40,830 bases of DNA from a virus: positions 1 to 40,830 of the IMG/VR virus record IMGVR_UViG_3300047586_000038; one strand, 5' to 3'. Shown in pieces: positions 2,734 to 40,830 of this stretch. Both the position numbers and the translations under genes were made by a program. The notes under the pieces are model-generated. The model searched no databases. It was not told the DNA's origin and worked only from the letters and a program-made list of their open reading frames with translations. Positions within the stretch are counted from its first letter, which is position 1; each line of letters begins with the position of its first letter.

Positions 2734-3153
2734 ATGAGCGATTACGGATTAAAAGTCTCAAAGCACAACCACGACATAGGGGATGGGGACAGGTATCAGA
2801 TTATGAATACCAAGTATCCCGTGCTAAAACTGAAACTAAGTGGCCAAGGTACTTTAAGTTATGTGGCCGGCCAATCAAACAAGATCGTGGAAATAACGCA
2901 TGATCTAGGTTATGTGCCTATTTGCTTTGTTTCCGGACAATATTTTGATGTAGATACCGCTTCTGTACCAACAAAAAGAGCGAACTGGAACAGGTGGTTC
3001 TATCGCGGATTGCAGGTTTCGGACTATTATTATTATTATGCAGACACTACGAAACTATACATTGTCTTTGTTCCGGCTGAAGGTATTACCGACGCTTATT
3101 CTTTTAACCTTGCTTACATGTACCATATTTTTTACGACGAGGACACCTTATAA
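2734..3153 (+). CDS. Small tail-tip protein, 'DYGLKI' family copy 2
   Basis: 139 residues with an AAAGGA ribosome-binding site upstream. It starts MSDYGLKVSKHNHDIGDGDR and continues with the strand pattern YPVLKLKLSGQGTLSY, typical of this family. A tyrosine-rich run (SDYYYYYAD) lies near residue 95, and aromatic patches like this are common in carbohydrate-contacting loops. It is homologous in layout to the genes on both sides, so it is probably a duplicated tail-tip module. There is one base between its stop and the next ATG. Confidence 0.5.
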   Translation: MSDYGLKVSKHNHDIGDGDRYQIMNTKYPVLKLKLSGQGTLSYVAGQSNKIVEITHDLGYVPICFVSGQYFDVDTASVPTKRANWNRWFYRGLQVSDYYYYYADTTKLYIVFVPAEGITDAYSFNLAYMYHIFYDEDTL

Positions 3154-3154
3154 A

Positions 3155-4441
3155 ATGGCTAATTTTACTAAACAAATAGACGCTGATATAAGAGACATGG
3201 ACCATCAATATGATGGTACTTGGTATGCAGATCCGGTTGAGGCATGGAACCTTGGGAATCCGGGAATGGTTACTAGAAATATTGGTTTGAGATTTACTGG
3301 TGTTACAATCCCTAAAAACTCCACTATAAATTCCGCTAAGATAACTTTCAGAGCAATGGCGGATCTTGGTCAAACATATCCACAAGCCATAAAGGTGAAA
3401 ATTATTGGTGTAGCAGAAGATAATACTGCCGAATTTGTAGCAAGTCCGGAAAATTCCGCTAGAACAAGAACACATACAACGGCTGTAGTTACTTGGAATG
3501 CCTCCGTTAGCGAGACAGCCGGGCAACCTTTCGACACTACAGATATAAAAACAATTATTCAGGAAATAGTAAACAGGTCCGGGTGGTCTTCTGGAAATGC
3601 ACTTGCCTTGTTTTTATATGATAATGGAAGCACTTCTGGAAATTATTTGGAAATGGATGGGTATTCGGATGACCCCACACACGCCGCAATTTTAGTTATT
3701 GACTACACACCTTCCGGATCCCCAAGTAGTTCAAATAGCCCGTCATTATCACCTTCTGCATCATTAAGTCCATCCCATTCTGCAAGCCCGTCATCGTCGG
3801 GAAGTCCTTCATCAAGTAACAGCCCATCAAATACACCGTCTTCATCGCTAAGCCCCTCACATTCGGCGTCGCCTTCCGGTTCAATGTCACCATCAAATAG
3901 CCCGTCTTTTTCACCTTCTTCGTCAGTATCGCCCTCAACTTCGCCATCACATTCATTAAGTCCTAGCGCAAGCGCGTCACCATCACTAGAACAGTACGGA
4001 ATAAAGATTAAAAAACCCGGTGTAAATCAGGATGTAGAAGATATTACAGATCCCAAGAATTTAGTTTTTACATCAGCTTATGGAGTTTTAGGTCTTCGCT
4101 TATTGGATACTATAACGGCTACTACCGACGCTAGTGGAAATATTGATACAACCGATAACCACAATATTGGCTACCCGCCTATAACTATTCTAACAACAAC
4201 AGATTATAACGGAATTAGGATAATGGCCCCAATAACATGGCACTCTTTTCATTTTAACGGAAGCAGGGAAACTATAGAGGTTACAGAAACTATTGATTTT
4301 CGTATAACCGATAATGCTATTAGACTTATTGTGCATGCTGAAGAGTACAACTGGGATTTAGACACAACAACAAACCTAGCGGGGCATCAATATACGTTCA
4401 AGGCGTATTATTACTTTAACGAGCTTGTAGAGACATTTTAA
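3155..4441 (+). CDS. Modular fibre: adhesin-like domain, Ser-Pro stalk, 'YGIKI' module
   Basis: 428 residues from the ATG at 3155, just after the previous stop; an earlier in-frame start would lie deep inside the upstream gene. Residues 1-185 form a beta-rich domain (INSAKITFRAM, then IIQEIVNRSGW and SGNALALFLY), resembling DNRLRE-like extracellular adhesion domains. Residues 187-278 are S-P-S-x-S-x repeats. Residues 279-428 are a module related to the two preceding small genes. The architecture is a sticky domain, a flexible stalk and a virion-type module, so a tail or side fibre is likely. All six Ser codons are used in the repeat. Confidence 0.6.
   Translation: MANFTKQIDADIRDMDHQYDGTWYADPVEAWNLGNPGMVTRNIGLRFTGVTIPKNSTINSAKITFRAMADLGQTYPQAIKVKIIGVAEDNTAEFVASPENSARTRTHTTAVVTWNASVSETAGQPFDTTDIKTIIQEIVNRSGWSSGNALALFLYDNGSTSGNYLEMDGYSDDPTHAAILVIDYTPSGSPSSSNSPSLSPSASLSPSHSASPSSSGSPSSSNSPSNTPSSSLSPSHSASPSGSMSPSNSPSFSPSSSVSPSTSPSHSLSPSASASPSLEQYGIKIKKPGVNQDVEDITDPKNLVFTSAYGVLGLRLLDTITATTDASGNIDTTDNHNIGYPPITILTTTDYNGIRIMAPITWHSFHFNGSRETIEVTETIDFRITDNAIRLIVHAEEYNWDLDTTTNLAGHQYTFKAYYYFNELVETF
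3713..3988 (+). repeat. Ser-Pro repeat tract 1
   Basis: Codes residues 187-278 of the protein at 3155, built on the unit S-P-S-x-S-x. The same amino-acid unit is written with all six Ser codons, so the DNA repeats are weak while the protein repeat is strong. Confidence 0.85.
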
Positions 4442-9326: not shown

Positions 9327-11153
9327 ATGAAATTTTGTCTAACCAAAGAAGCAGAGAATAAACTGATGGAAGAAATAAGAAGCGGAAGGTTAACCCCGGA
9401 TAAATTGATAGCCATGTCGTCCCTTGAAGCTAGAAAATACTTTTCTGATGTTATTGGAGATGAGGCAGGAAAAGAACTAAACATATTATTTGAAAAGAAA
9501 TTACTTTTAAAAAATCAAGATAAAGCCATGTATGATTTTTTCAAGAATGCAACAGGTCTTTCCAAGGAGGAAAAATTAGCTTTAACTGAAAAGGCCAAGA
9601 CAAGACTAGCAGAGATTAACGGTAGAATATTTTCTCCAAAGGAGGGAGAGCGGGTTCTAAGTGAACTAGCGTCAGATATATATGCCAAGAAATACAAAAT
9701 ACTACCAACGCAGGAAGAAATGGACACTATTACCAACCTTTCAACTGATGTAGCCAACGCTATGGAAAAAGCCGATATGGAGAAAATGACTTGGGGTAGC
9801 AAGGAAAATGGTCTTAAATTTGGTGCGGCACAGGTAGCACTAGAAAACTATACTGCGTCACTAAAAGCAACTGCGGGTAAAAGAAGTCTAATGAATCCTC
9901 TTACAACCAACGCTGTTAAAGCCACGGTGAACAATGCCTCGGTAGCCGCAAACTTTATTTTAACTAACTCCAGAGTCTTAATGACCACGTTTGATAACTC
10001 TTTATGGGGAAACCAAGGCGTAAGAGCAATGCTTGACAGCAGATATGAAAAAATATGGGCTAAGGATTTTGCTAAGTCTTTTGCCGATATTGCTCAAACA
10101 ATAAAAGGTGGTACTAAAAGAGGAGAAGCAATAATGGATGCTACAAGAGCGTGGGTATACTCCCAAGACGAATACCTTAAAGGGTACTACACCAATAAAG
10201 GTGGTATAGGATTGGATATTAAAGTTAGTGAAGAAAACTTTCCACAAAACGATGTAAACAAAATACCGGTGATAGGTAGATTTTTTAAAGCATCCGACGT
10301 AGTCTACAGTGCAGGAGCACTAAGGTTAAGGGTTGATATTGCAAATTTAGAATATAAACTAGCAGAAAAAGACGGCGAGGATTTAACAGATGTAGCCGTA
10401 CTTTCCAGCAAAAACTTGCTAATAAACTCCTTGACCGGTAGAGGAAACATAGGCGTGTTTGAACCGGCATCCAAGGTCATCAATATAGGGTTATTTGCCG
10501 TCAAGCTTGCAAAGTCCCAAATTGACTTTTTAACGGCGCATGTATTTGACCCAAGAGTGTCGTGGAAAGACAAGTACAATTCAGTAAAGAGACTATTAAA
10601 TGTTTGGGCGCATTTGGCAATAATTGTAGGTATTGGAGCCGCGCTATGGCCAGATGACAACAAGGGAGCCTTTGATCCCACATCTACCAACTTCATGTCA
10701 GTTAATGTTAAAAAAGTTAGACTGATAAAACCGGGGTTCGTGTCATATTTAACTGTAATAGCAAGAATCGTGTCCCAAAAAACAACCAACGCCGAGGGAA
10801 AGGTAACAGAACTAGGATCCGGATACGGCGTACCCACAGGGATGGATGTATTTTGGAGTTTCACGGAAGGAAAGTTTTCTCCTCTTTTAGGAGTTCTAAG
10901 AGATATAGTTAGACAACAAAACTTCAACGGCGACAAACCAACCCTTCAAAATATACTAGCTAATGTGGGTACTCCAATTGGTGTGCAAAACGCTATTCAG
11001 ATGGGAAAAAACTATGATGGAAATTTACTATTAGCCATAATAGCCAACATTCTTAATTTTAACGGCTTTAATGTGTCCTCATTAGTCTATACATCCAATA
11101 CCGCCCCTAAATCCCCCACAATTGGAGGTAAAAAATCAATTAGAAGCAAATAA
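9327..11153 (+). CDS. Internal virion protein, LPD38-like polyvalent C-terminus (putative)
   Basis: 608 residues, mostly helical. Residues 1-170 carry charged helices. The C-terminal 250 residues show the pattern seen at the end of large polyvalent phage proteins: a hydrophobic helix (LAIIVGIGAALW), then TNFMSVNVKKVRLIKPG, LTVIARIVSQKT and VFWSFTEGKFSPLLGVLRDI. It begins 1 base after the 948-residue gene, so the two may represent one ancestral polyvalent polypeptide split in two. A virion-packaged, DNA-ejection-associated role is inferred from position and size. No catalytic motif is visible. Confidence 0.5.
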   Translation: MKFCLTKEAENKLMEEIRSGRLTPDKLIAMSSLEARKYFSDVIGDEAGKELNILFEKKLLLKNQDKAMYDFFKNATGLSKEEKLALTEKAKTRLAEINGRIFSPKEGERVLSELASDIYAKKYKILPTQEEMDTITNLSTDVANAMEKADMEKMTWGSKENGLKFGAAQVALENYTASLKATAGKRSLMNPLTTNAVKATVNNASVAANFILTNSRVLMTTFDNSLWGNQGVRAMLDSRYEKIWAKDFAKSFADIAQTIKGGTKRGEAIMDATRAWVYSQDEYLKGYYTNKGGIGLDIKVSEENFPQNDVNKIPVIGRFFKASDVVYSAGALRLRVDIANLEYKLAEKDGEDLTDVAVLSSKNLLINSLTGRGNIGVFEPASKVINIGLFAVKLAKSQIDFLTAHVFDPRVSWKDKYNSVKRLLNVWAHLAIIVGIGAALWPDDNKGAFDPTSTNFMSVNVKKVRLIKPGFVSYLTVIARIVSQKTTNAEGKVTELGSGYGVPTGMDVFWSFTEGKFSPLLGVLRDIVRQQNFNGDKPTLQNILANVGTPIGVQNAIQMGKNYDGNLLLAIIANILNFNGFNVSSLVYTSNTAPKSPTIGGKKSIRSK

Positions 11154-11182
11154 TGTAACTATTTAGGGAGTATTATTAGAAT

Positions 11183-11446
11183 ATGGAAACTATAGATATA
11201 GTAAAAGCATTATTAGACTTAGGCCTTTCGGCAATACTATTGTATTTCCTATTGGTTGTTTGGAATGATCGAAAAGAGGTTATAAAGGAAAAAGATGCCC
11301 GAATAAAAGAATTAAGCGATAGAGCGATACAAATAGTTGGGGAAAATACAAAAACTCAAGTAGAACTTAGGGCCTCTATACAAGAGAACACCAAAGCTAC
11401 AGAAACACTAACCGCACGGGTATACGAGGCACTAAATAAAAGGTAA
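11183..11446 (+). CDS. Single-span membrane protein, holin/spanin-like
   Basis: 87 residues: one membrane helix (ALLDLGLSAILLYFLLVVW, residues about 9-27) followed by a charged coiled coil (DRKEVIKEKDARIKELSDRA) to the end. This layout is common for phage lysis accessory proteins or holin-like peptides. It is the first of a lysis-like cluster ending with the CHAP endolysin. A TATTAT hexamer ends 6 nt before the ATG and the nearest GGGAG is too far away, so a leaderless start is possible. Confidence 0.5.
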   Translation: METIDIVKALLDLGLSAILLYFLLVVWNDRKEVIKEKDARIKELSDRAIQIVGENTKTQVELRASIQENTKATETLTARVYEALNKR

Positions 11447-11455
11447 TATTGTATT

Positions 11456-11794
11456 ATGGATTTAAGGGATATGATTGAAATAACTAACGTACTGATAGCA
11501 ACAATAGCCATACCTCCCGCCATATCACTTTTACTGGTGGTAACTAGGGAGGAAAAAGTCGTCTCCCCGGAACAAAGAAGAATAAATAAAGCCCTAACAA
11601 TACTGTTTTCAGGTATTAGTCTCGCGGCCTTAATAAATGCGGCGCTGGCCCTTTCTTCTATTTTAGGCGGGGGCTTGTACGCGCACAACCTGTCCCCTTA
11701 TAGAAGCTTAGGTATAAACATATTCTTTTCGCTGGTTTCTTGGTTTATTTATTTTTCCCACATCGGGATAAGAAAATTTAAGAAAGGACAATAA
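11456..11794 (+). CDS. Three-span membrane protein, holin candidate
   Basis: 112 residues with three predicted membrane helices (around residues 10-27, 45-67 and 85-102) and a basic C-terminus (IRKFKKGQ). It lies between a single-span membrane protein and the CHAP endolysin, so a role in membrane permeabilisation at lysis is likely but inferred. A TAATAT hexamer ends exactly 6 nt upstream of the ATG, with no close ribosome-binding site. Confidence 0.5.
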   Translation: MDLRDMIEITNVLIATIAIPPAISLLLVVTREEKVVSPEQRRINKALTILFSGISLAALINAALALSSILGGGLYAHNLSPYRSLGINIFFSLVSWFIYFSHIGIRKFKKGQ

Positions 11795-11797
11795 TAT

Positions 11798-12208
11798 ATG
11801 ATGCCATTTAAAAACTTTATAGATTTATTTTCAGGTATTTATACAGATTTTGATAAAATTTATCCAAATCAATGCATGGATCTTGCACACTTTTATGTTT
11901 TTATTTGCCTTGGTATTTACGATAAATCGGTGTTAGCGGCAGATGTGGCAAAGAATGTTTGGCTTAAATTCAACCCCGCGTGGGGTAAGTATTTCAAAAA
12001 GATAGCAAATGTTTACTGGGATACTACTCAATTTCCTGTTAATGGAGATATTATAATTTGGAATGGAACCGATGGCCATATAGCTATTGTTGTAGACGCC
12101 AACGGGATGAATTTTCATTCCTTCGATGCAAATTACCCGGTAGGAACAAGGCCACACATTCAGTATCACAACTATGATAATGTTTTGGGTTGGTTAAGAA
12201 AGATTTGA
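11798..12208 (+). CDS. CHAP-domain endolysin
   Basis: 136 residues, essentially one CHAP (cysteine/histidine amidohydrolase/peptidase) domain. The catalytic Cys is in the NQCMDLAHFY motif (Cys26) and the His in GDIIIWNGTDGHIAIVV (His94), the standard CHAP order. No separate wall-binding domain or signal peptide is seen, so release should depend on a holin. It would cleave peptidoglycan peptides or amide links at the end of infection. An AAAGGA site lies upstream of tandem ATG codons (11798 and 11801). Membrane-protein genes flank it on both sides. Confidence 0.85.
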   Translation: MMPFKNFIDLFSGIYTDFDKIYPNQCMDLAHFYVFICLGIYDKSVLAADVAKNVWLKFNPAWGKYFKKIANVYWDTTQFPVNGDIIIWNGTDGHIAIVVDANGMNFHSFDANYPVGTRPHIQYHNYDNVLGWLRKI

Positions 12209-12255
12209 AGTGCTTATAATTTATAGGTTGCTTAACAAATAAGGCGGTGATTTTT

Positions 12256-12510
12256 ATGCCAAGTAAAGAAATTATTATTGAGTCAATAAAAGAATTTTTT
12301 AGAGTTATTGTTATAGCTATCATCCCTATTATTATTTCAAACCTTTCAGACAACGTATTCAACTGGAAAGTAGTTGCTATTGCTGGTGCTATTGCTGGTC
12401 TAAAGTTTATAGACAAGCTTATGCACTTAACAGGTGCGGCAAGAGAAGAAGAGGGGACAGTAAAGAAACCGGTAGAATCAGCTTTAACTACAGGATTGAC
12501 TAGGTTCTAA
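12256..12510 (+). CDS. Holin-like two-span membrane protein
   Basis: 84 residues from the ATG at 12256. An upstream GTG at 12247 is rejected because it lies inside the ribosome-binding site AAGGCGGTGA. Two hydrophobic segments (VIVIAIIPIIISNL, and VVAIAGAIAGLKFIDKL) are followed by a charged C-terminal tail, a layout typical of small phage holins. It follows the CHAP endolysin, so it is the best holin candidate of the three membrane proteins here. The 47 bp before it contain a TATAAT box (12216-12221). Confidence 0.6.
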   Translation: MPSKEIIIESIKEFFRVIVIAIIPIIISNLSDNVFNWKVVAIAGAIAGLKFIDKLMHLTGAAREEEGTVKKPVESALTTGLTRF

Positions 12511-12528
12511 AATCTACAGGAGGTAGAA

Positions 12529-12702
12529 ATGATAGTAAGAATGGTTCACTTCACTTGTGTGGATGCTGTCAAATTAAAGCATCAAGTCAACCAAAAATTC
12601 GTTGGAAAGACCGATGAGGAGGTGAAGAAAAAGATTCAAGAGTTTTCGGATCAATTAGACGCCGGTGGTTGGAAAGTCATTAGACCTAAAGTTATCGCTT
12701 GA
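12529..12702 (+). CDS. Small 57-residue protein, last gene of late operon
   Basis: A 57-residue frame (MIVRMVHFTC at the start, WKVIRPKVIA at the end) preceded by an excellent AGGAGGT site 5 nt from the ATG, which is the main reason to accept it. The middle is charged and probably helical (GKTDEEVKKKIQEFSDQLD). It is the last rightward gene before the convergent leftward block. I do not recognise the family. Confidence 0.6.
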   Translation: MIVRMVHFTCVDAVKLKHQVNQKFVGKTDEEVKKKIQEFSDQLDAGGWKVIRPKVIA

Positions 12703-12721
12703 ACCGGGTTCCCATGTTTTA

Positions 12722-12751
12722 CTCCCCGATGCGTGAAAACACAAAGGGGAG
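12722..12751. terminator. Two-tier hairpin between convergent operons
   Basis: CTCCCC at 12722-12727 pairs with GGGGAG at 12746-12751, and inside it GTG (12733-12735) pairs with CAC (12740-12742) around AAAA. It lies 19 bp after the last late gene and just before the end of the leftward block, where a bidirectional terminator is expected. No clear T-run follows on either strand, so it is not a textbook intrinsic terminator. Confidence 0.4.
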
Positions 12752-12755
12752 GTTC

Positions 12756-13106
12756 TTACGCTATAAAATGTTCTAAAGTAACTTCTACCACGTTTACGGC
12801 CCACAATTTTCGTTTGTCCTTGGCTCCTTTTTTAGACCAGCCATGCACGATTATCTTTCCACCGGATTCAAGCCATGCTTTAGCAGAAAGGAGAGCCAAT
12901 ATCTTTTTTACCCGTGCGGAACTATTAACTGCGCTTGTTGTCTGTACAGCTAGTATCTCGTTTTCTTTAATTGCCAAAACATCTATAAAATTAAATAAAT
13001 CCTGTCGAGTATGAGAAAAAGGATTGTAGTGTTCGGTTATATTACATAAATACCCTTCCTTTCTTAAAAAGGCTAGGCTTCTTTGTGTGGGGCTTGTTTT
13101 AGACAT
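12756..13106 (-). CDS. Resolvase-like restriction-fold nuclease (putative)
   Basis: 116 residues. It shows a pattern widespread in phage genomes: SPTQRSLAFLRKEGY, then RQDLFNFIDVLAI, ILAVQTTS, ARVKKILAL and GKIIVHGWSKKG with KRKLW. The Asp in FIDVLA and the Gln in AVQTTS fit positions of a degenerate PD-(D/E)XK fold, related to VRR-NUC or Holliday-resolvase-like nucleases. It is the last gene of the leftward block and overlaps the upstream HNH gene by 8 bp. A role in resolving or trimming replication intermediates is inferred. Confidence 0.6.
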   Translation of the reverse strand: MSKTSPTQRSLAFLRKEGYLCNITEHYNPFSHTRQDLFNFIDVLAIKENEILAVQTTSAVNSSARVKKILALLSAKAWLESGGKIIVHGWSKKGAKDKRKLWAVNVVEVTLEHFIA

Positions 13107-31366: not shown

Positions 31367-32272
31367 ATGTCTACTTTTAAAACAAAAACAGATTTGAGGC
31401 CAGCAGTACAAAACGAAATGGATAGAATTTTGGCTATTCCTTCTGGAAAGAGAACTACGAGAGAAGCTAACTTCTTAACGGCTCTTGCTCCTTATATTAC
31501 CAATGAAATTATAGTAAAAGACTCTTTAGGAAGAATTGTTATGGCCGCAGGTCTAACAGTTCCGGTAGGATTTTCCGGATTTAAAAAAGGTGCAATATTT
31601 ACTAAAAAAGACGCGTCAAATGAAGGACGTTATATAAACCGTGGTACAGAAACCAAGGCTTCATGGAACGATGTTTCTTCGGCTAATAGCCCAAGTCCTT
31701 CTTCAAGTCCTTCATCTTCAAATAGCTCTTCAAGTTCTCCTTCCGGCTCGCCCTCGCTTAGTCCTTCGGCATCGTTGAGTCCAAGCACATCAGTGTCACC
31801 TTCTAGCTCACCAAGCCATTCTAACTCTCCTTCTTTAAGTCCAAGCAATTCAACAAGCCCTAGTACTTCCAGCAGCCCCAGCTTGAGTCCGTCACGTTCG
31901 GTAAGTCCGAGTAGTTCTAACTCTCCGTCTAGTAGCCCTAGCTATTCAAATAGCCCCTCTAACAGCCCTTCGCTATCACCTAGTACTTCCGTTAGTCCGA
32001 GCAGTTCTGGTAGTACCAGTAACTCTCCTTCGGCGAGTCCGAGTAGTTCGAACAGTCCTTCAAATAGTCCTTCAGCAAGCCCAAGTCATTCTGCAAGTCC
32101 TAGTAGTTCAAACTCGCCTTCTTTAAGTCCAAGTAGTTCGAGAAGCCCAAGTAACTCACCAAGTTATAGTCCTTCAGACAGCGCAAGTCCTTCAAGTTCG
32201 AATAGTCCAAGTAATTCTCCATCGGGTAGCCCGTCTTCTAGCCCATCGGCTTCGGCTTCCCCTAGTATTTAG
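31367..32272 (+). CDS. Ser-Pro-rich fibre/decoration protein, virion
   Basis: 301 residues. Residues 1-104 form a compact domain (GFSGFKKGAIFTKKDAS, then RYINRGTETKASW) of a kind common in phage head-fibre or tail-tip proteins. Residues 105-301 are S-P-S-x-S-x repeats to the very end, with no further folded domain. Directly follows the coat gene, so it may be a head fibre. Its repeats share an 18-bp stretch (TTAAGTCCAAGTAGTTCG at 32123-32140) with the LamG fibre gene. Confidence 0.6.
   Translation: MSTFKTKTDLRPAVQNEMDRILAIPSGKRTTREANFLTALAPYITNEIIVKDSLGRIVMAAGLTVPVGFSGFKKGAIFTKKDASNEGRYINRGTETKASWNDVSSANSPSPSSSPSSSNSSSSSPSGSPSLSPSASLSPSTSVSPSSSPSHSNSPSLSPSNSTSPSTSSSPSLSPSRSVSPSSSNSPSSSPSYSNSPSNSPSLSPSTSVSPSSSGSTSNSPSASPSSSNSPSNSPSASPSHSASPSSSNSPSLSPSSSRSPSNSPSYSPSDSASPSSSNSPSNSPSGSPSSSPSASASPSI
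31679..32269 (+). repeat. Ser-Pro repeat tract 2
   Basis: Codes residues 105-301 of the protein at 31367, the longest tract wholly inside the window, with no folded domain after it. Shares the 18-mer at 32123-32140 with tract 3. Confidence 0.85.
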
Positions 32273-32289: not shown

Positions 32290-32916
32290 ATGGAAACAGC
32301 AAGAGCAATAAATAGCATACCGGTTTTATATGAACACACCGACCACGAAGTAGTGCCTGTAGAGATAAGTTCTTCTTCGCAGATTACAAGTGTTCCAGCA
32401 TCTAGTGAATTACATATAGGGGAAGTAGGCGGTATAACTGCTAAGGTTTCCGTTGAATTTTCTCGTACTGCCGGCATATTGGCGTATGATGCCAACGACG
32501 CAGTGCTTCCTTCTGCCGGAGGTGTGGTTGAGATGGCAGGAGTTTCCAGAATAGCCGGAGGTTCCGGGTATATCACAGGTATTAGAATCATTACCAATAA
32601 AAAGAGTATTACACCTCGTTTCAGGATACATTTATTCAGTTCTTCTGACCCCACGTTATCCGCTGATGGTGCTAACTGGAAAGACAAGTACAGCGATTCT
32701 TCAAAAAGAGTGGGTTTCATAGATTTAGATGCTATGAGTACCGCCGCCGATACAACCAATTCTGATATGAGCAGAACTGTTAACGAAACTCTTAGAAAAC
32801 CCTTTGTTTGCGCTTCTTCTACGACATCTCTATACTTTGTTTTAGAGACTTTAGACGCATTCACTTCTGCCGATGGGCAGAAATTCACCGTTGTAATGTA
32901 TATTGAAAGGAATTAA
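32290..32916 (+). CDS. Structural protein upstream of the DGR-like target (putative)
   Basis: 208 residues, beta-rich and without membrane segment or catalytic motif. Typical strands: ISSSSQITSVP, GGITAKVSVEFSRTAG, GSGYITGIRIITNKKSITPR and TSLYFVLETLDAF. An AAAGG site lies upstream. It lies between a Ser/Pro fibre and the variable protein, so a fibre-attached or virion role is inferred. Confidence 0.5.
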   Translation: METARAINSIPVLYEHTDHEVVPVEISSSSQITSVPASSELHIGEVGGITAKVSVEFSRTAGILAYDANDAVLPSAGGVVEMAGVSRIAGGSGYITGIRIITNKKSITPRFRIHLFSSSDPTLSADGANWKDKYSDSSKRVGFIDLDAMSTAADTTNSDMSRTVNETLRKPFVCASSTTSLYFVLETLDAFTSADGQKFTVVMYIERN

Positions 32917-32921
32917 AGCAC

Positions 32922-34256
32922 ATGATTCCATCACGAAGAAAACTTCTTCTATTCGACAATCAGTCGGCCAAAGTCTACGGTGTTTCTTGGAATAAAGGGT
33001 CATCTCCTACTTTAACTCGTACCGACAGTGCTGTTGGTATGGTGGCTAACGCTGGGGTAGATACAACTGTTGTTAGAAACGACTTTGATAACGCTGAAAT
33101 ATACAAAGATATTACCCAAGTAACCGATAGCCTAGGTAATGTTTTTATGCGTATCCCCAAGTTTTATATTAAAAAGACCGATGGAACTGGCTTTAAGACT
33201 TGGCAAGTATCCAAAGATATGTTTACGGGGGCTTATCTTCCTCAGTGTTTCTGGGATTTTACCACTAGCACAGAACTTTCCTACATCGACATTGGCAAGT
33301 ATAACGCCTCACTTAGTGGTGCAAATAAATTGGAATCTCTTTCGGGTACTTATCCTTTAATAAATAAAACTATTGTTAACTTCAGAACTTACGCCCAAGC
33401 CAATGGAAATGCTTACCAACAGTTAGACATTCATGCGGTAGATATTCTACAAACCTTATTTATAATAGAATTTGCTACATTAAATCCACAGAGTATTTTT
33501 GCAGGCTATACAGGAGGGGAATATGTGGCTACAGATACCGCTACAGTTGCCGAGACCGCAGTAAATAGAATAATTGTTACTAATGCCGTCGCCGCTACCT
33601 TCGTAGTCGGACAGGCAATTTCAGTAGGTACGTCTTTAGGTGGTATTCAGGTATTTTACGGAAGAACAATTACCAGTATTGATGTTTACGATGCCTCTAA
33701 TAAAGCTATCTCGTTTGACGGTGCAGCAGTTAATATCGCAATTGGAAACATTGTTTGGTCATCTGGATGGAAATCTGGGTTTAGTTCATCTATTACAGCA
33801 AAATCAGGTTCACCTGTTTCTAATAGTGATTCCAAACATCCCGCAATGTATCGTGGAATTGAAAATCCTTTCGGTTCAGTTTGGCAGTTTGTTGACGGGC
33901 TAAATATAACAGATAGACAAGCGTGGGTATGTGCAAACGCCGCGAACTACGCTTCTAATTTATTTGCTTCCCCTTATGTGCAACTAGGTTATGTAGACGG
34001 AAATACCAACGGATACCCAATTGAATTAGGCTGGGATGCTAACAATCCCTATGCTAACCTACCTATTACAGTTGGCGGGGGTACTACGACATATTACAGT
34101 GATTATTATTATCAGGATGTAGGGCAAAGAATTGCCTTTTTCGGCGGGACTTGGTACTACGGGGCGGGTGCGGGGTTGTTCTTCTGGGGTCTGGTTAACG
34201 CGTCGTCGAGCGCGAGCATCAGCATCTCGGGCCGCCTTCTTAGAAAAGCTCTTTAG
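32922..34256 (+). CDS. DGR-type variable protein, C-type-lectin/FGE-like fold
   Basis: 444 residues. The C-terminal part has formylglycine-generating-enzyme/C-type-lectin features: IENPFGSVWQFVDGLNI, then QRIAFFGGTWYYGAGAGLFF and NASSSASISISGRL. The last 37 residues match the classic DGR variable-region layout (GG-x-W-x-x-G-x-x-AG-x-F-x-W-x-L-x-x-ASS-x-A-x-x-x-I-x-GRL). In DGRs a reverse transcriptase copies a template repeat with adenine errors into this region to vary ligand binding. No such transcriptase is in the window. Probable tail or fibre receptor-binding protein. AAAGGA precedes the ATG. Confidence 0.75.
   Translation: MIPSRRKLLLFDNQSAKVYGVSWNKGSSPTLTRTDSAVGMVANAGVDTTVVRNDFDNAEIYKDITQVTDSLGNVFMRIPKFYIKKTDGTGFKTWQVSKDMFTGAYLPQCFWDFTTSTELSYIDIGKYNASLSGANKLESLSGTYPLINKTIVNFRTYAQANGNAYQQLDIHAVDILQTLFIIEFATLNPQSIFAGYTGGEYVATDTATVAETAVNRIIVTNAVAATFVVGQAISVGTSLGGIQVFYGRTITSIDVYDASNKAISFDGAAVNIAIGNIVWSSGWKSGFSSSITAKSGSPVSNSDSKHPAMYRGIENPFGSVWQFVDGLNITDRQAWVCANAANYASNLFASPYVQLGYVDGNTNGYPIELGWDANNPYANLPITVGGGTTTYYSDYYYQDVGQRIAFFGGTWYYGAGAGLFFWGLVNASSSASISISGRLLRKAL
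34143..34235 (+). other. Predicted DGR variable region
   Basis: Codons 408-438. The stretch is GC-rich in AT-rich surroundings. Twelve codons (residues 410, 412, 413, 416, 421, 423, 425, 426, 430, 432, 433, 434) all end in C or T. Eleven of them sit where a template would carry AAY, and residue 421 fits TAC to TTC. A-to-N copying of an AAY-rich template would give this NNY pattern. Fixed positions (GG, W, G, A, AG, W, L, ASS, A, GRL) match known variable proteins. Confidence 0.7.
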
Positions 34257-34286
34257 GGGGCGGGGGGGAATCCCCCCACAAAAGAG
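34249..34286 (+). other. GC-rich hairpin after the variable region, DGR-like
   Basis: GGGGGG (34263-34268) and CCCCCC (34272-34277) pair around AAT, within an outer CTCTTT (34249-34254) and AAAGAG (34281-34286) pair. DGR targets normally carry a GC-rich hairpin just downstream of the variable region, needed for efficient retrohoming. It may also terminate transcription, as it straddles the stop codon. Confidence 0.6.
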
Positions 34287-34315
34287 TTATTAAGATGCTA
34301 AACAAAGAGTATAAT
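34287..34315 (+). promoter_or_regulatory. Possible promoter for the gene at 34324
   Basis: TATAAT (34310-34315) ends 8 nt before the ATG at 34324. The -35 is poor (TTATTA at 34287-34292, 17 bp upstream). No ribosome-binding site, so a near-leaderless start is possible. Confidence 0.35.
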
Positions 34316-34323
34316 AAGTACAT

Positions 34324-34572
34324 ATGCCAAACAATCTCTACGCAGCCGTGGTTAACGGAGAGTTAAAAACAGATAGTGCTTTATTTACAAATTACAAACC
34401 TTTAGTCTATGCTAAAGTACCCGCATTTAACCAAGAAACGCAATACGTTGTTCAGAGTAAGTTTGTTGATGAAAAAGACAGGGTATTCTTGGGGGTTGAG
34501 GTTAAGACCGTTATAGCGGATATTAAACCGATGGACATGGTGGGTAACGCAGAGATAGTAGACAACAACTAA
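34324..34572 (+). CDS. Small protein, tail-assembly-like (putative)
   Basis: 82 residues, beta-rich (LYAAVVNGELKTDS, then VYAKVPAFNQETQYVV). The layout (YAVV-NG at the start, a proline-bracketed strand, then TQYV) resembles small phage proteins found beside fibre genes. It follows the variable protein, where DGR systems often keep accessory genes, but it does not look like Avd. Function unknown. Confidence 0.45.
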   Translation: MPNNLYAAVVNGELKTDSALFTNYKPLVYAKVPAFNQETQYVVQSKFVDEKDRVFLGVEVKTVIADIKPMDMVGNAEIVDNN

Positions 34573-34593: not shown

Positions 34594-35460
34594 ATGAATG
34601 GCAAACTTTCCATCGTAATTCCATCAAGAAATGAGATTTTTCTGCAAAAAACCATACAAGATGTGTTAAAAAACGCATCCGGGGATATAGAAGTATTTCC
34701 CATTTTAGATGGTTACGAACCTCCGGTAGAAGAAATTGTTATTGACCCAAGAGTTACCTATATAAGACTTCCAAAAGTAAAATCAGCGCAAAAAAGACAC
34801 GGTATAAATAAGGCCATTAGAGAGCTTTCTACCGGGGAATTTGTTATGTCTTTGGACGCTCATTGCATGGTAGCTCCGGGGTTTGACGAAGTTCTAAAAA
34901 AGGATTTGGAGGAGGATTGGGTGGCCGTTCCTAGAAGGCATCGTTTAGATGCCGAGAATTGGTGTTTACAGGATCAGAGCGACACGAGACCCCCCATTGA
35001 TTACGAATATCTCATGTACCCAAAACAATTTGATCCTAGGGCATTCCACGGGTTTAAATGGGATGAGAGAACACTGGCTAGGAAGGATGTTTTAATTGAT
35101 GACATAATTACCATGCAGGGAAGTATTTGGATAATGCATAGGAGTCACTACGACAAAATGGGTCTTATGCAAGTTGAGGGATACACAGGTTTCGGGCAAG
35201 AGGCTGAGGAAATTTCTTTTAAAACATGGCTTAATGGTGGAAGGGTTATTGTAAACAAGAATACTTGGTACGCACATTTGCATAAAGGTTCTAAGTACGG
35301 CAGGATGTATTTTATGGGAAAAGAAGAAAACCGTAGTTGTTATAGATACGCCTATAATTTCTGGGCCAATGAACACAAGGAATTTTTTGTAAATCTTGTT
35401 AAAAAGTATAGTCCGATGCCCGGATGGCCTATAAATTGGGAGGAAGATTTGTATGCTTGA
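34594..35460 (+). CDS. Family 2 glycosyltransferase (GT-A)
   Basis: 288 residues. Classic GT2 start KLSIVIPSRNE, an LDGYEPP segment, and DAH at 88-90 in place of the usual DXD, which binds the metal-nucleotide sugar. The second half (ITMQGSIWIMHRSHYDKMG, then GFGQEAEEISFKTWLNGG and TWYAHLHKG) resembles acceptor regions of GT2 enzymes. Its closest relative here is the N-terminal half of the protein at 37751. It could modify phage fibres, phage DNA or host glycans; the acceptor is unknown. It overlaps the methyltransferase gene by 8 bp. Confidence 0.8.
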   Translation: MNGKLSIVIPSRNEIFLQKTIQDVLKNASGDIEVFPILDGYEPPVEEIVIDPRVTYIRLPKVKSAQKRHGINKAIRELSTGEFVMSLDAHCMVAPGFDEVLKKDLEEDWVAVPRRHRLDAENWCLQDQSDTRPPIDYEYLMYPKQFDPRAFHGFKWDERTLARKDVLIDDIITMQGSIWIMHRSHYDKMGLMQVEGYTGFGQEAEEISFKTWLNGGRVIVNKNTWYAHLHKGSKYGRMYFMGKEENRSCYRYAYNFWANEHKEFFVNLVKKYSPMPGWPINWEEDLYA

Positions 35461-36079
35461 TACTCTAAATTACATTATTGAAAAATACAAAATTGACCTA
35501 ACCAAAAAGTCCCCATTTCACATTAACTGCGATAGGTTGGTAGACCTTCCTAAACTCTTTGGAGAACTCGGTTTCACCAAAGGCGCAGAAATTGGGGTAC
35601 TTGAGGGTAAATACAGCGAAATTTTGTGCAGATCCCTCCCAAACGCTAAGATTTATTCAATTGATAAGTGGGGATACTACCCAATAAGAAAAAACTTCAG
35701 AAGACAAAAACAATACGATGCATTTTTTATAGAGGCTAGGGATAGGCTGGCTAAATATCCCAACAATGAAATAATCCGGGAATGGAGTATGGATGCCATA
35801 AACAAGTTTGAAGATGAGTCCTTGGATTTTGTTTTTATTGATGCCAACCACGAGTTTCAATATGTAGCCAATGATATAGCCGCTTGGCGTCACAAGGTAA
35901 GGAAGGGTGGAATTATATCCGGCCATGACTTTGGAAAACCTACTAACTTAAAGGATACTTTTTGCCATGTTTATTGGGTAGTTATAGCTTGGGCGCAGTC
36001 ACACGGTATCCATCCTTGGTTTGTACTGGAAAGCACCACAAACCCTAAAGAAAGGTCATGGCTGTGGGTCAAATCATAG
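35453..36079 (+). CDS. Class I SAM-dependent methyltransferase
   Basis: 208 residues. Motif I GAEIGVLEGKYSEIL binds SAM, SIDKWG is the acidic motif II, and LDFVFIDANHEFQYVANDIA is a Methyltransferase_24-type motif, followed by KVRKGGIISGHDFG. Related enzymes methylate sugars or small molecules. Placed between glycosyltransferases, it probably methylates a glycan or sugar donor. It overlaps the following HNH gene by 22 bp. Confidence 0.8.
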   Translation: MLDTLNYIIEKYKIDLTKKSPFHINCDRLVDLPKLFGELGFTKGAEIGVLEGKYSEILCRSLPNAKIYSIDKWGYYPIRKNFRRQKQYDAFFIEARDRLAKYPNNEIIREWSMDAINKFEDESLDFVFIDANHEFQYVANDIAAWRHKVRKGGIISGHDFGKPTNLKDTFCHVYWVVIAWAQSHGIHPWFVLESTTNPKERSWLWVKS

Positions 36080-36552
36080 TTAGAAGATGTTACAAATGTG
36101 GGGAAAGAAAGCCTCTCAGTTCTTTTTTTAAAAACAGTGCTAATAAGTCTGGTGTGAGTTCTAGTTGTAAGGAATGTGACAAAAAGAATAATCATAATCA
36201 CTATATTGGGTGTAAGGGGGCTGTACAAAAGACTACAAGAAAATATTATCTAAACAACAGGGGGGTGGTTCTTAAAAAAAGCAGAAAATATAGAACAGAT
36301 TGGCGTATAAAAGTTATTGGGCATCTTGGGGGGAAGTGTGTTATTTGTGGATTTTCTGATATAAGAGCTTTACAAATAGATCATGTGAGCGGAGGGGGTA
36401 GGGTCGATAGGAAAGGTTTAACCACTGGTTTCTACAAAAAGGTTGTGGAAGATAAAAGTGGAAAATATCAGCTTTTGTGTGCTAATTGCAACGCAATAAA
36501 AAGAATAATAAACCACGAGTTTAAGAAAGGAACAATAAATTATGAGTCATAG
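36058..36552 (+). CDS. HNH endonuclease, inserted in the sugar cluster
   Basis: 164 residues. The N-terminal zinc pairs (CYKCGERKPLSSFF, then SSCKECDKK) and the HNH core (KCVICGFSDIRALQIDHVSG, then QLLCANCNAIKRI) are complete. It interrupts the glycosyltransferase/methyltransferase series and overlaps both neighbours (22 and 11 bp), as free-standing homing endonucleases often do. The start at 36058 is the first in-frame ATG; later starts would drop the first zinc motif. It differs from the early endonuclease VII-type HNH gene. Confidence 0.8.
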   Translation: MAVGQIIVRRCYKCGERKPLSSFFKNSANKSGVSSSCKECDKKNNHNHYIGCKGAVQKTTRKYYLNNRGVVLKKSRKYRTDWRIKVIGHLGGKCVICGFSDIRALQIDHVSGGGRVDRKGLTTGFYKKVVEDKSGKYQLLCANCNAIKRIINHEFKKGTINYES

Positions 36553-37255
36553 TATTAACCCAATAGGTCTCTTATCAATAGTATATTACACGGCTAACGT
36601 ACTAAGAGAACCGTTTTTCACTAATGCTTTAAACCAACTAAAAGAAGCGGCAGGAGACATTCCTGTTATTAGTGTTTCACAAAAGCCCATGGATTTTGGA
36701 AAAAATATATGCATAGGGGATATCGGAAAGTCCTATTTGAATATTTACAGACAGATGCTCATTGGAGCCAAAGAAGTAAAAACCCCATTCATTGCTTTTG
36801 CGGAGGATGATACTTTATACCCAGCAGAACATTTCAAAACCTTTTTACCAAAGGAGACCGAGTTTGCCTACGACATGGCCCGTTGGTCAATTTACTCTTG
36901 GACAAAACCTGCTCTTTATTCCATAAAATTTAGAAGAACCAATACCTGTTTAATAGCACCGCGAGACCTTTTTATTGAGGCAATTGAAGAAAGATTTGTT
37001 AAGTGGCCGGATGACTCAAAAGTAAATTTAGGTTTTTGGGGAGAACCTAGTAGGTATGAGAAACAACTGGGAGTAACCGTTAGAAAAGGTGTTCAGTTTT
37101 CCTCACAAGTCCCGGTTATATCATTTTCACACCCGGATGCAATTGGGTATGGAATTCAAGGTAAAAACAAAGCAGTTGGAGAAATTAAAGCGTATGAAAT
37201 TCCCTATTGGGGCAGGGCTGAACAAGTCCTAGAAAGGTTTTACAATGGAAAATAA
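36542..37255 (+). CDS. GT-A type glycosyltransferase-like protein
   Basis: 237 residues. AFAEDDTLYP supplies EDD at 88-90, a DXD-type metal site. The region SQKPMDFGKNICIGDIGKSY leading to it is clearly homologous to residues 349-400 of the protein at 37751 (LKPLSFGDNITLPLE, then CEDDVAY). The fold is GT-A, but family and acceptor are uncertain. It overlaps the next gene by 11 bp, within the sugar cluster. Confidence 0.65.
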   Translation: MSHSINPIGLLSIVYYTANVLREPFFTNALNQLKEAAGDIPVISVSQKPMDFGKNICIGDIGKSYLNIYRQMLIGAKEVKTPFIAFAEDDTLYPAEHFKTFLPKETEFAYDMARWSIYSWTKPALYSIKFRRTNTCLIAPRDLFIEAIEERFVKWPDDSKVNLGFWGEPSRYEKQLGVTVRKGVQFSSQVPVISFSHPDAIGYGIQGKNKAVGEIKAYEIPYWGRAEQVLERFYNGK

Positions 37256-37754
37256 AAAAAGACCAGATAGAACAATGATGTTTACTCATTTGCCAGTATT
37301 GCTTCGCGTAATAGACGTATCAGAGGGAGATATTTTAGAGATGGGAACCGGGTACTTCAGTACCCTTGTTTTGCATTGGTTTTCCGACCTTACCGGAAGA
37401 AGAGTAGTTTCCTACGAGACAAACCCTATGTGGTACAGGAAGGTTTCAAAATACAATAGTGGAAAACACGAGGTTATTTTAATTGATAACTGGGATGACG
37501 CTCCAATAGAAAAACAACACTGGGGAATGGCTTTTGTTGACCACGGTCCGAACGGTAGAAGGCATGTGGAAATTCAAAGACTGGCTAAGGCTAATAACGT
37601 AGATTATATAGTTATTCATGACACGGAAGAGCGCCATGACAATCAATACCACTATAGTAGAATTTGGTCTTTGTTCAAAAATAGATACGATCACACTAAA
37701 TATACAGCTCATACTAGCGTAGTTAGCAATTTGAAGGACCTATCAAATCTATGA
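37245..37754 (+). CDS. SAM-dependent methyltransferase-like protein
   Basis: 169 residues. Motif I GDILEMGTGYFSTLVLHWF, acidic motif VVSYETNPMWY, and WGMAFVDHGPNGRRHVEIQ followed by DYIVIHDTEE give a class I methyltransferase layout. The SAM-binding glycine motif is a variant form. It lies between two glycosyltransferases, so it may methylate the same glycan. It overlaps the next gene by 4 bp. Confidence 0.65.
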   Translation: MENKKRPDRTMMFTHLPVLLRVIDVSEGDILEMGTGYFSTLVLHWFSDLTGRRVVSYETNPMWYRKVSKYNSGKHEVILIDNWDDAPIEKQHWGMAFVDHGPNGRRHVEIQRLAKANNVDYIVIHDTEERHDNQYHYSRIWSLFKNRYDHTKYTAHTSVVSNLKDLSNL

Positions 37755-39469
37755 AAGATTTAAGCATTGTAATACCGGCAAGAAATGAAGAGTTTTTAGG
37801 TTTAACCATCCAAGATCTGTTAAACAATATAGAAGGCAATACAGAAATAATTGCCATTTTAGATGGCTATGATAAACCTATTCCAGAACTACCACAGGAT
37901 CCCCGAGTTAGATATTTGAAGTACGATGTTCCTATTGGTCAAAGAGCCGCCATAAACAGGGCGGTAGCCGCTTCTGATGCCAAATATATTGTAAAAGTGG
38001 ATGCCCATTGTACTTTTGGAAAAGGATTTGATCGCATTTTAATGGAAGACATGCAGGAGGATTGGACGTTGGTTCCAACAATGAGGAATCTACATGCCTT
38101 TGATTGGGTTTGTAAGAAGTGCGGAAACAGTTGGTATCAAGGCCCAACTCCTACTCATTGCATGAAGGATTACAAACATCCAGTAAATAATCCGGCTTGC
38201 GATAGTAAGGAATTTGAGAGAAAAATTGTTTGGGAGCCTAGAAGAGGCACACGCAACAACTTCTTTAGATTCGATAAAGACCTTCACTTCCAGTATTGGA
38301 GAGACTTGGAAGAAAGACTTGACCCTTCTTGGGAAATAGCAGAAACAATGTCTATTCAAGGATCTTTCTTCATGCTTACCCGCGCAAAGTATTTGGAACT
38401 AAACATTTGCGATGAGGCCCATGGTTCTTGGGGCCAGCAAGGGGTGGAGGTTGCCTGCAAAACATGGCTATCGGGCGGAAAGGTAATGACCAGTAAAAAG
38501 ACTTGGTACAGTCACCTTTTTAGGACTCAAGGCGGAGATTTTGGCTTTCCTTATGAGAACAACACAGTAACCCAAGCTAGGAAATTCTCGCAGGACTTGT
38601 GGAATAGCCCTTATGAAGAACTTGTGAAGAAGTTTCCGCAGGCAATCCACGACTTGAAATGGCTTTTAGATAAGTTTGCTCCGGTTCCAGATTGGGAATT
38701 TACCAAAGGAATTTTGTATTATTCAGACTGCAAAAAAGAGGATTGGCAAGTAAAACCTTTTCGCGACCTTTTAAAAAGAGCTAATCACGATAGGTACAGA
38801 ATTGTTAGTGTGACACTAAAGCCTTTATCTTTTGGCGACAACATAACTTTGCCGTTAGAACGAAGTTTCTTAACTATGGCAAAGCAGATCCTTACCGGGT
38901 TAAAGGAATTAAACACGGATTATGTTTTCTTTTGCGAAGACGATGTGGCCTACAGTTCTAGTCACTTTGATTTTGTGCCTCCAACAAGGGATACCTACTA
39001 CTACAACATGAATTGTTGGCAAGTAAGGGATACTGATGGCTACGCGGTTTACTTTGATGCAAAAAGACTTTCACAAATTTGTGCAGACCGAAAGTTTTTA
39101 ATTGACCATTACGAAAAAAGGATTAGAATAATAGAAGAGGCTGGCAAAGCCGGAGAAATTATTGGAAGTGGTTTTGCCGCTAAAATGGGTTACGAACCGG
39201 GAACTCATCACAGGCCCGAACGGGTAGATGATTTTACAGCCGAAGGCTGGAAAAGCGAAGTGCCAAATCTTGATGTAGCAACAAGTTCCGGAAAAAATGC
39301 AGGGCATGGATCCGGAGGAAAAACTTTAACAAATAGGAAATGGAAACCGGAAGACTTTCGTAGCCAACGTAATTGTAAAAATTGGTTAGTTGCTCCGGAC
39401 GGCGTAATACCCGGATGGGGAAAATGGAAGGATTTTATAAATGGCATTTCCGACGGGATGGCTTCATAA
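37751..39469 (+). CDS. Bifunctional glycosyltransferase: GT2 fused to second GT-A domain
   Basis: 572 residues. Residues 1-300 are a GT2 domain (LSIVIPARNEE, LDGYDKPIPE, DAH at 84-86), related to the protein at 34594, with a possible zinc insertion (Cys121, 124, 137, 150). Residues about 345-570 are a second domain with EDD at 396-398 and HYEKRIRIIEEAGKAGEI, homologous to the protein at 36542. So two enzymes that are separate genes nearby are joined here. The two domains may add successive sugars. It overlaps the LamG fibre gene by 29 bp. Confidence 0.75.
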   Translation: MKDLSIVIPARNEEFLGLTIQDLLNNIEGNTEIIAILDGYDKPIPELPQDPRVRYLKYDVPIGQRAAINRAVAASDAKYIVKVDAHCTFGKGFDRILMEDMQEDWTLVPTMRNLHAFDWVCKKCGNSWYQGPTPTHCMKDYKHPVNNPACDSKEFERKIVWEPRRGTRNNFFRFDKDLHFQYWRDLEERLDPSWEIAETMSIQGSFFMLTRAKYLELNICDEAHGSWGQQGVEVACKTWLSGGKVMTSKKTWYSHLFRTQGGDFGFPYENNTVTQARKFSQDLWNSPYEELVKKFPQAIHDLKWLLDKFAPVPDWEFTKGILYYSDCKKEDWQVKPFRDLLKRANHDRYRIVSVTLKPLSFGDNITLPLERSFLTMAKQILTGLKELNTDYVFFCEDDVAYSSSHFDFVPPTRDTYYYNMNCWQVRDTDGYAVYFDAKRLSQICADRKFLIDHYEKRIRIIEEAGKAGEIIGSGFAAKMGYEPGTHHRPERVDDFTAEGWKSEVPNLDVATSSGKNAGHGSGGKTLTNRKWKPEDFRSQRNCKNWLVAPDGVIPGWGKWKDFINGISDGMAS

Positions 39470-40830
39470 ACAGCTATTAACAATAGATTACACAAAAGTT
39501 AACGGTGGCGCTAACTTAACTGATTTCCCTGTTTTAATTACACAAGATTGTCTACAATCTGCAATTTTTAGCCAAGCCGATAATGGTGGTGGTGACATTC
39601 GTTTTTCTTCTGATGAAGCGGGAAATACCCAACTATCTTGTGAAATTGTTACCTTTAACACGGCTACAAGTAAGTGTGAAATATATGTAAAAATTCCCAC
39701 ACTCGATTTTGATGACAACACAGTCTTTTATGTTTGGTATGGAAATACAGGACAAACGCAACCAGCAGAAGATGCGGCATTTGGAAAGGAAAGTACTTGG
39801 GATTCTAGTTTCAAAGCTGTTCATCACATGAACGGCGCGGCTTACACCGCATTAGACGACTCAACTGCTAACGATAATGACATGGATTGGGAGTCTCCCA
39901 CAGCTCCTACTTATGCTGTTGCAGGTAAATGGAGTGCTGGCGGTGCTGTTGACTTTAACAAAAATTCTTGCGTCTTACAGTTGGCTTACAATCAAGCATC
40001 TGGAAACTGTACAGTTACTATGGTTTTCAAGCAGGATGCCGCCACCGACACACAAGGAGTTATGTCCGTGGGTAGAGGTGGAAGTGGTTTCTCAATGTAT
40101 CCGAATGGCTCAAATACTTGTTATTGGAGTGTTAACACTGTGTATGGGACAAACCTAACCGACTTGGTAGCGGCTACGAACTGGATTATCTTAACTGGTG
40201 CGCACGATGGCACAAACGCAAAGATATATCAGAACGGGGCTTACAAAGTACAAGGGGCAGGAAATGTACCTGGAAACAACGGCACGTGTTATTTCATAAT
40301 AGGAGCGAATAATTCTAATAATTACTACTTAGATGGACAAGTAGAAGAGGTTAGAATTTCAACAGTATTCAGAGGTGCGGATTGGATAACTACAGAATAC
40401 AACAACTTAAACGCTCCTAACACATTTACAACATCGGAGGTGTTTCCTTCTCAATCGTTTAGTCCGTCTTTATCGCCCTCATCGTCGGGAAGCCCGTCAT
40501 TGTCTCCAAGCCATTCGGCATCACCCAGCAGTTCAAATAGTCCTTCTCTACCGCCCTCTACCTCTAACAGTCCATCTCTAAGTCCGTCGTCTTCGGAAAG
40601 CCCGTCACTAAGCCCTTCCGCAAGTCGCTCACCGAGTTCCTCTAACTCACCTAGTTTGAGTCCGAGTCATTCTGCCTCTCCAAGCAGTTCAAATAGTCCT
40701 TCATTAAGTCCAAGTAGTTCGGCAAGTCCGTCTTCGTCGGAAAGCCGTTCAGCGTCCCCCAGTAGTTCCAATTCACCGAGCCAATCACCAAGCTCTTCGG
40801 AGTCACCTTCACTTAGTCTTAGTGCATCGT
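39441..40830 (+). CDS. DUF2341/LamG Ser-Pro fibre protein, N-terminal part (continues at 1-411)
   Basis: First 463 codons of a 557-residue protein that runs off the right end and finishes at position 411. Residues about 8-105 resemble DUF2341 (GWLHKQLLTI near the start, then a TDFPVLIT strand and FYVWYGN). Residues about 115-315 look like a concanavalin/LamG jelly-roll domain (AVHHMNG, then YYLDGQVEEVRIS), a fold that often binds glycans. From residue 337 the chain becomes S-P-S-x-S-x repeats. The start ATG overlaps the upstream glycosyltransferase gene by 29 bp. The domain order suggests a receptor-binding or side fibre displayed on a flexible Ser/Pro stalk. Family assignments are by eye, and the ligand is unknown. 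Confidence 0.8.
   Translation, partial: MAFPTGWLHKQLLTIDYTKVNGGANLTDFPVLITQDCLQSAIFSQADNGGGDIRFSSDEAGNTQLSCEIVTFNTATSKCEIYVKIPTLDFDDNTVFYVWYGNTGQTQPAEDAAFGKESTWDSSFKAVHHMNGAAYTALDDSTANDNDMDWESPTAPTYAVAGKWSAGGAVDFNKNSCVLQLAYNQASGNCTVTMVFKQDAATDTQGVMSVGRGGSGFSMYPNGSNTCYWSVNTVYGTNLTDLVAATNWIILTGAHDGTNAKIYQNGAYKVQGAGNVPGNNGTCYFIIGANNSNNYYLDGQVEEVRISTVFRGADWITTEYNNLNAPNTFTTSEVFPSQSFSPSLSPSSSGSPSLSPSHSASPSSSNSPSLPPSTSNSPSLSPSSSESPSLSPSASRSPSSSNSPSLSPSHSASPSSSNSPSLSPSSSASPSSSESRSASPSSSNSPSQSPSSSESPSLSLSAS
40449..40830 (+). repeat. Ser-Pro repeat tract 3, continuing at 1-300
   Basis: Codes residues 337-521 of the LamG fibre and is split by the circle opening. The repeated DNA here is where the assembly was broken. 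Ser codons are mixed as in the other two tracts. Confidence 0.85.
40704..40830. repeat. Right copy of 127-bp terminal overlap
   Basis: Exact duplicate of positions 1-127. When the ends are merged, the gene starting at 39441 continues without a frame change to the stop at 409-411. Count the overlap only once when measuring genome size or coverage. Confidence 0.95.

Follow-up and report, generated by a model that had tools for sequence, protein, structure and literature searches.

The window, the whole stretch of 40,830 bp of a virus record that was analysed here, carries on one strand a gene for a 444-aa tail protein, a G/C hairpin, the last codons of a reverse transcriptase (RT) gene and a small ORF, whose positions are given in Table 1. 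TR and VR denote the template repeat and the variable repeat of a DGR, respectively, and L-numbers denote related loci. The record has an exact terminal repeat of 127 bp and a 557-aa ORF that keeps its frame when the two ends are joined; consequently, the circle of 40,703 bp (about 40.7 kb) is probably real. The other genes include a terminase, a major head protein and a protein that weakly matches an SU10-type portal. The terminase, with a best match of 42% to Flavobacterium phages, does not indicate the host. Three proteins, encoded at 39441-40830 plus 1-411, 3038-4441 and 31367-32272, contain long SPSSS-type serine/proline repeats, and the record ends fall within one of them. Directly 3' of the target locus, at 34594-39469, glycosyltransferase-like and methyltransferase-like genes were recognized by eye, the first of which has a weak glycosyltransferase match only.

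Table 1. Features at the target locus of the window
Feature	Position	Strand	Basis
Upstream gene	32290..32916	+	Homology, seen by eye, with the C-terminal half of its L002 counterpart upstream of the target
Target gene, 444 aa, DGR variable protein (predicted C-type-lectin fold)	32922..34256	+	ORF, predicted fold, phrog_5302 match
VR, homologous to the TR of L001/L002	34138..34245	+	Changes at TR adenines versus non-adenines
G/C hairpin, DGR-kind target-site element	34257..34278	+	6-bp stem 34262-34267/34272-34277; homologous hairpins of relatives
23 bp between hairpin and RT scar, holding the putative deletion joint	34279..34301	+	Comparison with L001/L002
Scar, last ~17 RT codons and stop	34302..34355	+	Homology to the RT end of L001/L002
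Small ORF, 82 aa, overlapping the RT 3' end	34324..34572	+	Homologous to the 74-aa ORF that follows the L002 RT

Target protein, variable repeat and hairpin

The 444-aa protein matches phrog_5302 (tail protein) at 2e-49, and its C-terminal end reads FGGTWYYGAGAGLFFWGLVNASSSASISISGRLLRKAL, a layout that is also found in about 50 relatives. Its AlphaFold model (mean pLDDT 89.8) matches TvpA at Z 12.5 and Mtd at Z ~11, both of which are classic C-type-lectin DGR targets. The closest solved fold is TaqVP, a DGR variable protein of Thermus aquaticus (PDB 5vf4; Z 26.3), which aligns over 277 residues, most of the window protein, at 18% identity. With this predicted C-type-lectin fold, a 3' VR and a hairpin, the gene product is a DGR variable protein that has its variable residues at the C-terminus, and the tail protein is likely to be receptor-binding.

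The TR of the nearest relative, not one of the window itself, served as the reference for the adenine signature. Aligned to the L002 TR without gaps, window 34138-34232 is changed at 20 of 30 TR adenines and at 4 of 65 other bases (Fisher p = 1e-9), the differences thus lying almost only at TR adenines; in the gene outside the VR, 20% of sites differ between the window and L001. The window VR was therefore once diversified by adenine mutagenesis, before the loss described below. A prior reading of the window, made from the sequence only, had noticed the DGR variable-region layout, now supported by this signature and by the relatives, and had named a fold prediction as a check, which does give the C-type-lectin fold with TaqVP, TvpA and Mtd among the best matches. 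It had further counted 12 variable codons ending in C or T; the window counterparts of the ten AAY codons of the TR do all end in C or T, while the number 12 is approximate because further A-containing TR codons (AGG, ACG, TAT and AGT) vary too.

The GC-rich hairpin of the same reading was found as a 6-bp stem 3' of the stop codon, downstream of the VR as in a DGR target, and it has homologues in most relatives; by itself, it is only mildly better than shuffled sequence (z -1.3). In phage BPP-1 the hairpin is required for homing (PMC3240598). The phage DGR hairpins described in the same paper have GRNA loops and stems of 7-10 bp (PMC3240598), whereas the window has a GAAT loop and the shorter stem. 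Mtd of Bordetella phage BPP-1 (PMC3240598) and the window protein have in common a C-type-lectin fold (predicted for the window), a 3' VR and a downstream hairpin; the BPP-1 DGR is intact and active, whereas the cassette of the window appears to be deleted.

Cassette of the relatives and scar in the window

Relatives were gathered from an IMG/VR scan (53 loci), a profile scan that added more and a genome scan that gave mainly Bacillota; the phage collection held distant relatives of the target only (Lactobacillus phage LBR48). An RT is carried by 26 of 50 viral records, and in most of these 26 a TR follows the target at a distance of some tens of bases. The two closest relatives, L001 and L002 (86% protein identity), possess the target, hairpin, TR, RT and small ORF, the order in L002 being target (10001-11338), hairpin, TR (11394-11520), RT-18 RNA (11559-11634), RT (11637-12695) and small ORF (12664-12888). 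The upstream flank of the target is also conserved between the window and L002, as judged by eye from the ORF translations. These phage cassettes of IMG/VR and the Bacillota prophage cassettes of Salirhabdus (L082) and Alkalihalobacillus (L083) share the target, the hairpin and the small ORF (the latter checked in L001/L002) with the window, but they own a TR and an RT of ~350 aa, of which no more than the last ~17 codons remain in the window.

An RT was detected in the window neither by Pfam RVT_1 nor by tblastn with the RT of relatives, a search of both strands gave no TR, and the RT-18 RNA (RF03021), present in L002, was likewise not found. The window consequently lacks the DGR-type RT, the TR and the structured RNA of a complete autonomous DGR, in agreement with the sequence-only reading, which had seen an apparently complete circle with no RT and no template. 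The best non-self TR placement has 24 non-A mismatches in 100, versus 6-9 in most real TRs, and the best such placements are A-rich chance matches.

In L001/L002, the place of the 23 bp that follow the window hairpin is occupied by about 1.3 kb with TR, RT-18 RNA and RT. In the RT frame, the scar reads TKSIISTYAKQSLRSRG versus AKSIISKYAKESLRKNS of the L001/L002 RT, each followed by the stop, and tblastn with the RT C-terminus onto the scar gave 79% over 14 aa (E 6.5e-4). Upstream of the small-ORF ATG, 18 of 18 bases are identical between the window and the L002 RT 3' end before the first mismatch. The target stop is separated from the scar by 49 nt in the window and by 1,307 nt in L001/L002; because the RT end is kept between the same two genes over this much shorter distance, the TR, the RNA and the RT are read as deleted, on a scar that is short. 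The sequence of the scar joint occurs in no other IMG/VR contig.

RT status and repeat variation among the relatives

Scars of several kinds were found in other loci. In L005, L022 and L188 the TR is truncated and fused to the RT C-terminus, in L044, L207 and L215 an intact TR is joined to the RT 3' part, and in L030 and L201 the RT is deleted internally with the TR kept. The deletion begins within the hairpin in L181 and L023, where an RT C-terminal fragment is left, and TR and RT are wholly absent in L007, L010, L017 and others. L085, a prophage of the isolate Scopulibacillus darangshiensis, has an intact TR and an internally deleted RT, the same lesion as L030; the genome of this isolate has no second DGR-type RT, its only other RT being a group II intron maturase. 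In about ten lineages, the scars demonstrate loss directly.

With the VR left out, the tree of 61 lineages requires about 18 changes of RT status, at least 12 of these being forced by well-supported branches, although such counts alone cannot separate loss from gain, and RT status is no more clustered than shuffled labels. No RT was detectable in 25 of 66 sampled lineages, about a third and an upper estimate because incomplete RT-less records could hide an RT. These lineages are scattered over the tree, a pattern that suggests frequent loss of the mutator and RT-less lineages that rarely give rise to large clades. Among the relatives with RT, the distances of RT and target are moderately correlated (Spearman 0.44; for 15 of 35 the nearest neighbour is the same), and therefore some cassette exchange is likely.

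The RT-carrying pairs with 0-2 differences outside the VR have 5, 17, 18 and 19 VR differences, all at TR adenines, whereas the four RT-less near-identical groups (L023/24/25/26/28; L034/35/36/38/52; L043/44/45; L027/46) have 0 VR differences and up to 5 elsewhere in the gene. The contrast has a Fisher p of about 2e-10, or 2e-6 when the RT-carrying exception L013/L016 (14 differences outside the VR, 0 inside the compared stretch) is included, with contigs that inside one group may share a site and are not fully independent. Two further RT-carrying pairs, L001/L002 and L011/L012, are identical throughout and uninformative on VR change. After RT loss, the target protein seems to stay fixed; for the window this is inferred from its relatives, because there is no near-identical second genome of it.

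By fold energy, the hairpin is present in nearly all loci with RT. Judged by stem length, 11 of the 13 RT-less loci that keep donor traces have it, compared with 1 of the 20 that keep none. A perfect stem of at least 6 bp was counted in 35 of 46 loci with RT, a measure that undercounts their hairpins where stems contain mismatches, and the argument accordingly rests on the class in which all is gone (1 of 20) and on the fold energies. In one of these 20, L081, little sequence follows the target, and the fold energy indicates a good hairpin. The pattern is as expected if the hairpin serves the DGR. Kept in phages with RT and after recent-looking losses, and mostly lost where all donor traces are gone, the hairpin offers a natural test of a role in the DGR versus a role for the target gene.

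Origin of the orphan target

We regard it as very probable that the window locus represents what is left of a DGR, its recipient half, after deletion of the donor half, and not a trans-acting system. The ancestor would have had the order target, hairpin, TR, RT-18 RNA, RT and small ORF, and adenine-directed mutagenic retrohoming would have varied the lectin-like C-terminus of its receptor-binding tail protein. At least one deletion would have taken the TR, the RNA and the RT gene except its last ~17 codons, which were probably retained because the beginning of the next gene lies within them, and the final protein variant would now be inherited like an ordinary gene. The sequences show the homology of the target, its adenine signature, the lack of RT and TR, the RT scar and the intact cassettes of relatives; the receptor-binding role, the order of the deletions and the end of variation in this very phage are what we infer. 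The sequence-only reading had left the choice between supply in trans and a relic; the RT 3'-end scar, the intact close relatives and the fixed VRs of RT-less loci favour the relic, and nothing positive was found for supply in trans, with no compatible TR in IMG/VR and a scarred isolate without another DGR-type RT.

Provision of an RT and a TR from the host or from a co-infecting phage, with the VR still diversified, appears very unlikely. The window could in principle still be a target because its hairpin and VR reading frame are intact, and it also retains the adenine signature; targets distant from the RT cassette can be acted on (PMC4891356; PMC12629997), and the TR and RT of relatives are similar enough for cross-talk to be conceivable. 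However, exact VR-derived patterns with N at possible adenines matched nothing in IMG/VR, and a shorter 3' VR pattern led to 15 IMG/VR loci, none of which is compatible over the whole VR. Among 50 known TRs, the closest fit leaves 4 non-adenine mismatches, and the next one leaves 15 and does no better than shuffled queries. The fixed VRs of near-identical RT-less relatives and the Scopulibacillus isolate, without a DGR-type RT elsewhere, argue in the same direction. By a variant to which we give equally little credence, the RT-less phages, including the window, would be facultative recipients that are diversified in trans on co-infection with an RT-carrying relative, which, if true, would make the DGR a shared resource that single genomes can drop.

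An assembly joined across a minority deletion, or a mis-assembly, in a population that really has the TR and RT is less probable still: near-repeats such as VR and TR can confuse assemblers, but the joint here runs from the hairpin to the RT 3' end with 23 bp of its own and not from VR to TR, and comparable scars recur in independent samples as well as in a cultured isolate. Least probable is that an RT was never present, the target gene having been acquired alone or TR and RT having inserted beside it in relatives, since the moderate agreement of RT and target distances, which speaks for some exchange, stands against the adenine signature and hairpin of the window VR, a retained piece that aligns in frame with the RT C-terminus to the stop, and longer RT fragments of relatives that show deletion directly.

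As a DGR recipient with a deleted donor half, the window is a further example of an orphan target, in a phage and with a readable scar. Orphan targets are already known: isolates of Treponema denticola carry DGR targets without RT or TR, read as remnants with multiple gains and losses (PMC4891356). Both they and the window keep the target gene in a genome without RT and TR, but the former are chromosomal targets of one bacterial species, whereas here a phage tail protein, a visible RT scar and losses in many lineages are found. What is notable is the frequency of loss within one phage protein family, a pattern that allows the costs and benefits of hypermutation to be tested by comparison. DGR surveys usually start at the RT gene, so that orphan targets go unseen, and a search that starts at the target shows them; Roux et al. 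state that their own approach misses targets not adjacent to an RT (PMC8144416).

Several cassettes of the relatives have features of their own. The position of the RT-18 RNA in L002, between TR and RT, puts this Rfam family (RF03021) inside a DGR cassette, and a similar stretch was seen by eye in L030 and L201. In L087, L089 and L096, from gut Clostridia MAGs, the RT lies in two frames (profile 1-186 and 185/186-343), and the same split point in all three points to a shared insertion, frameshift or recoding. About 190-640 nt past the target stop of L201, RT profile 1-51 and 281-343 are joined in one open frame, from which a small RT-derived protein might be made. In L216, which is without RT, a TR-like copy with a VR-like 3' half lies 3' of the target, a possible product of TR/VR recombination.
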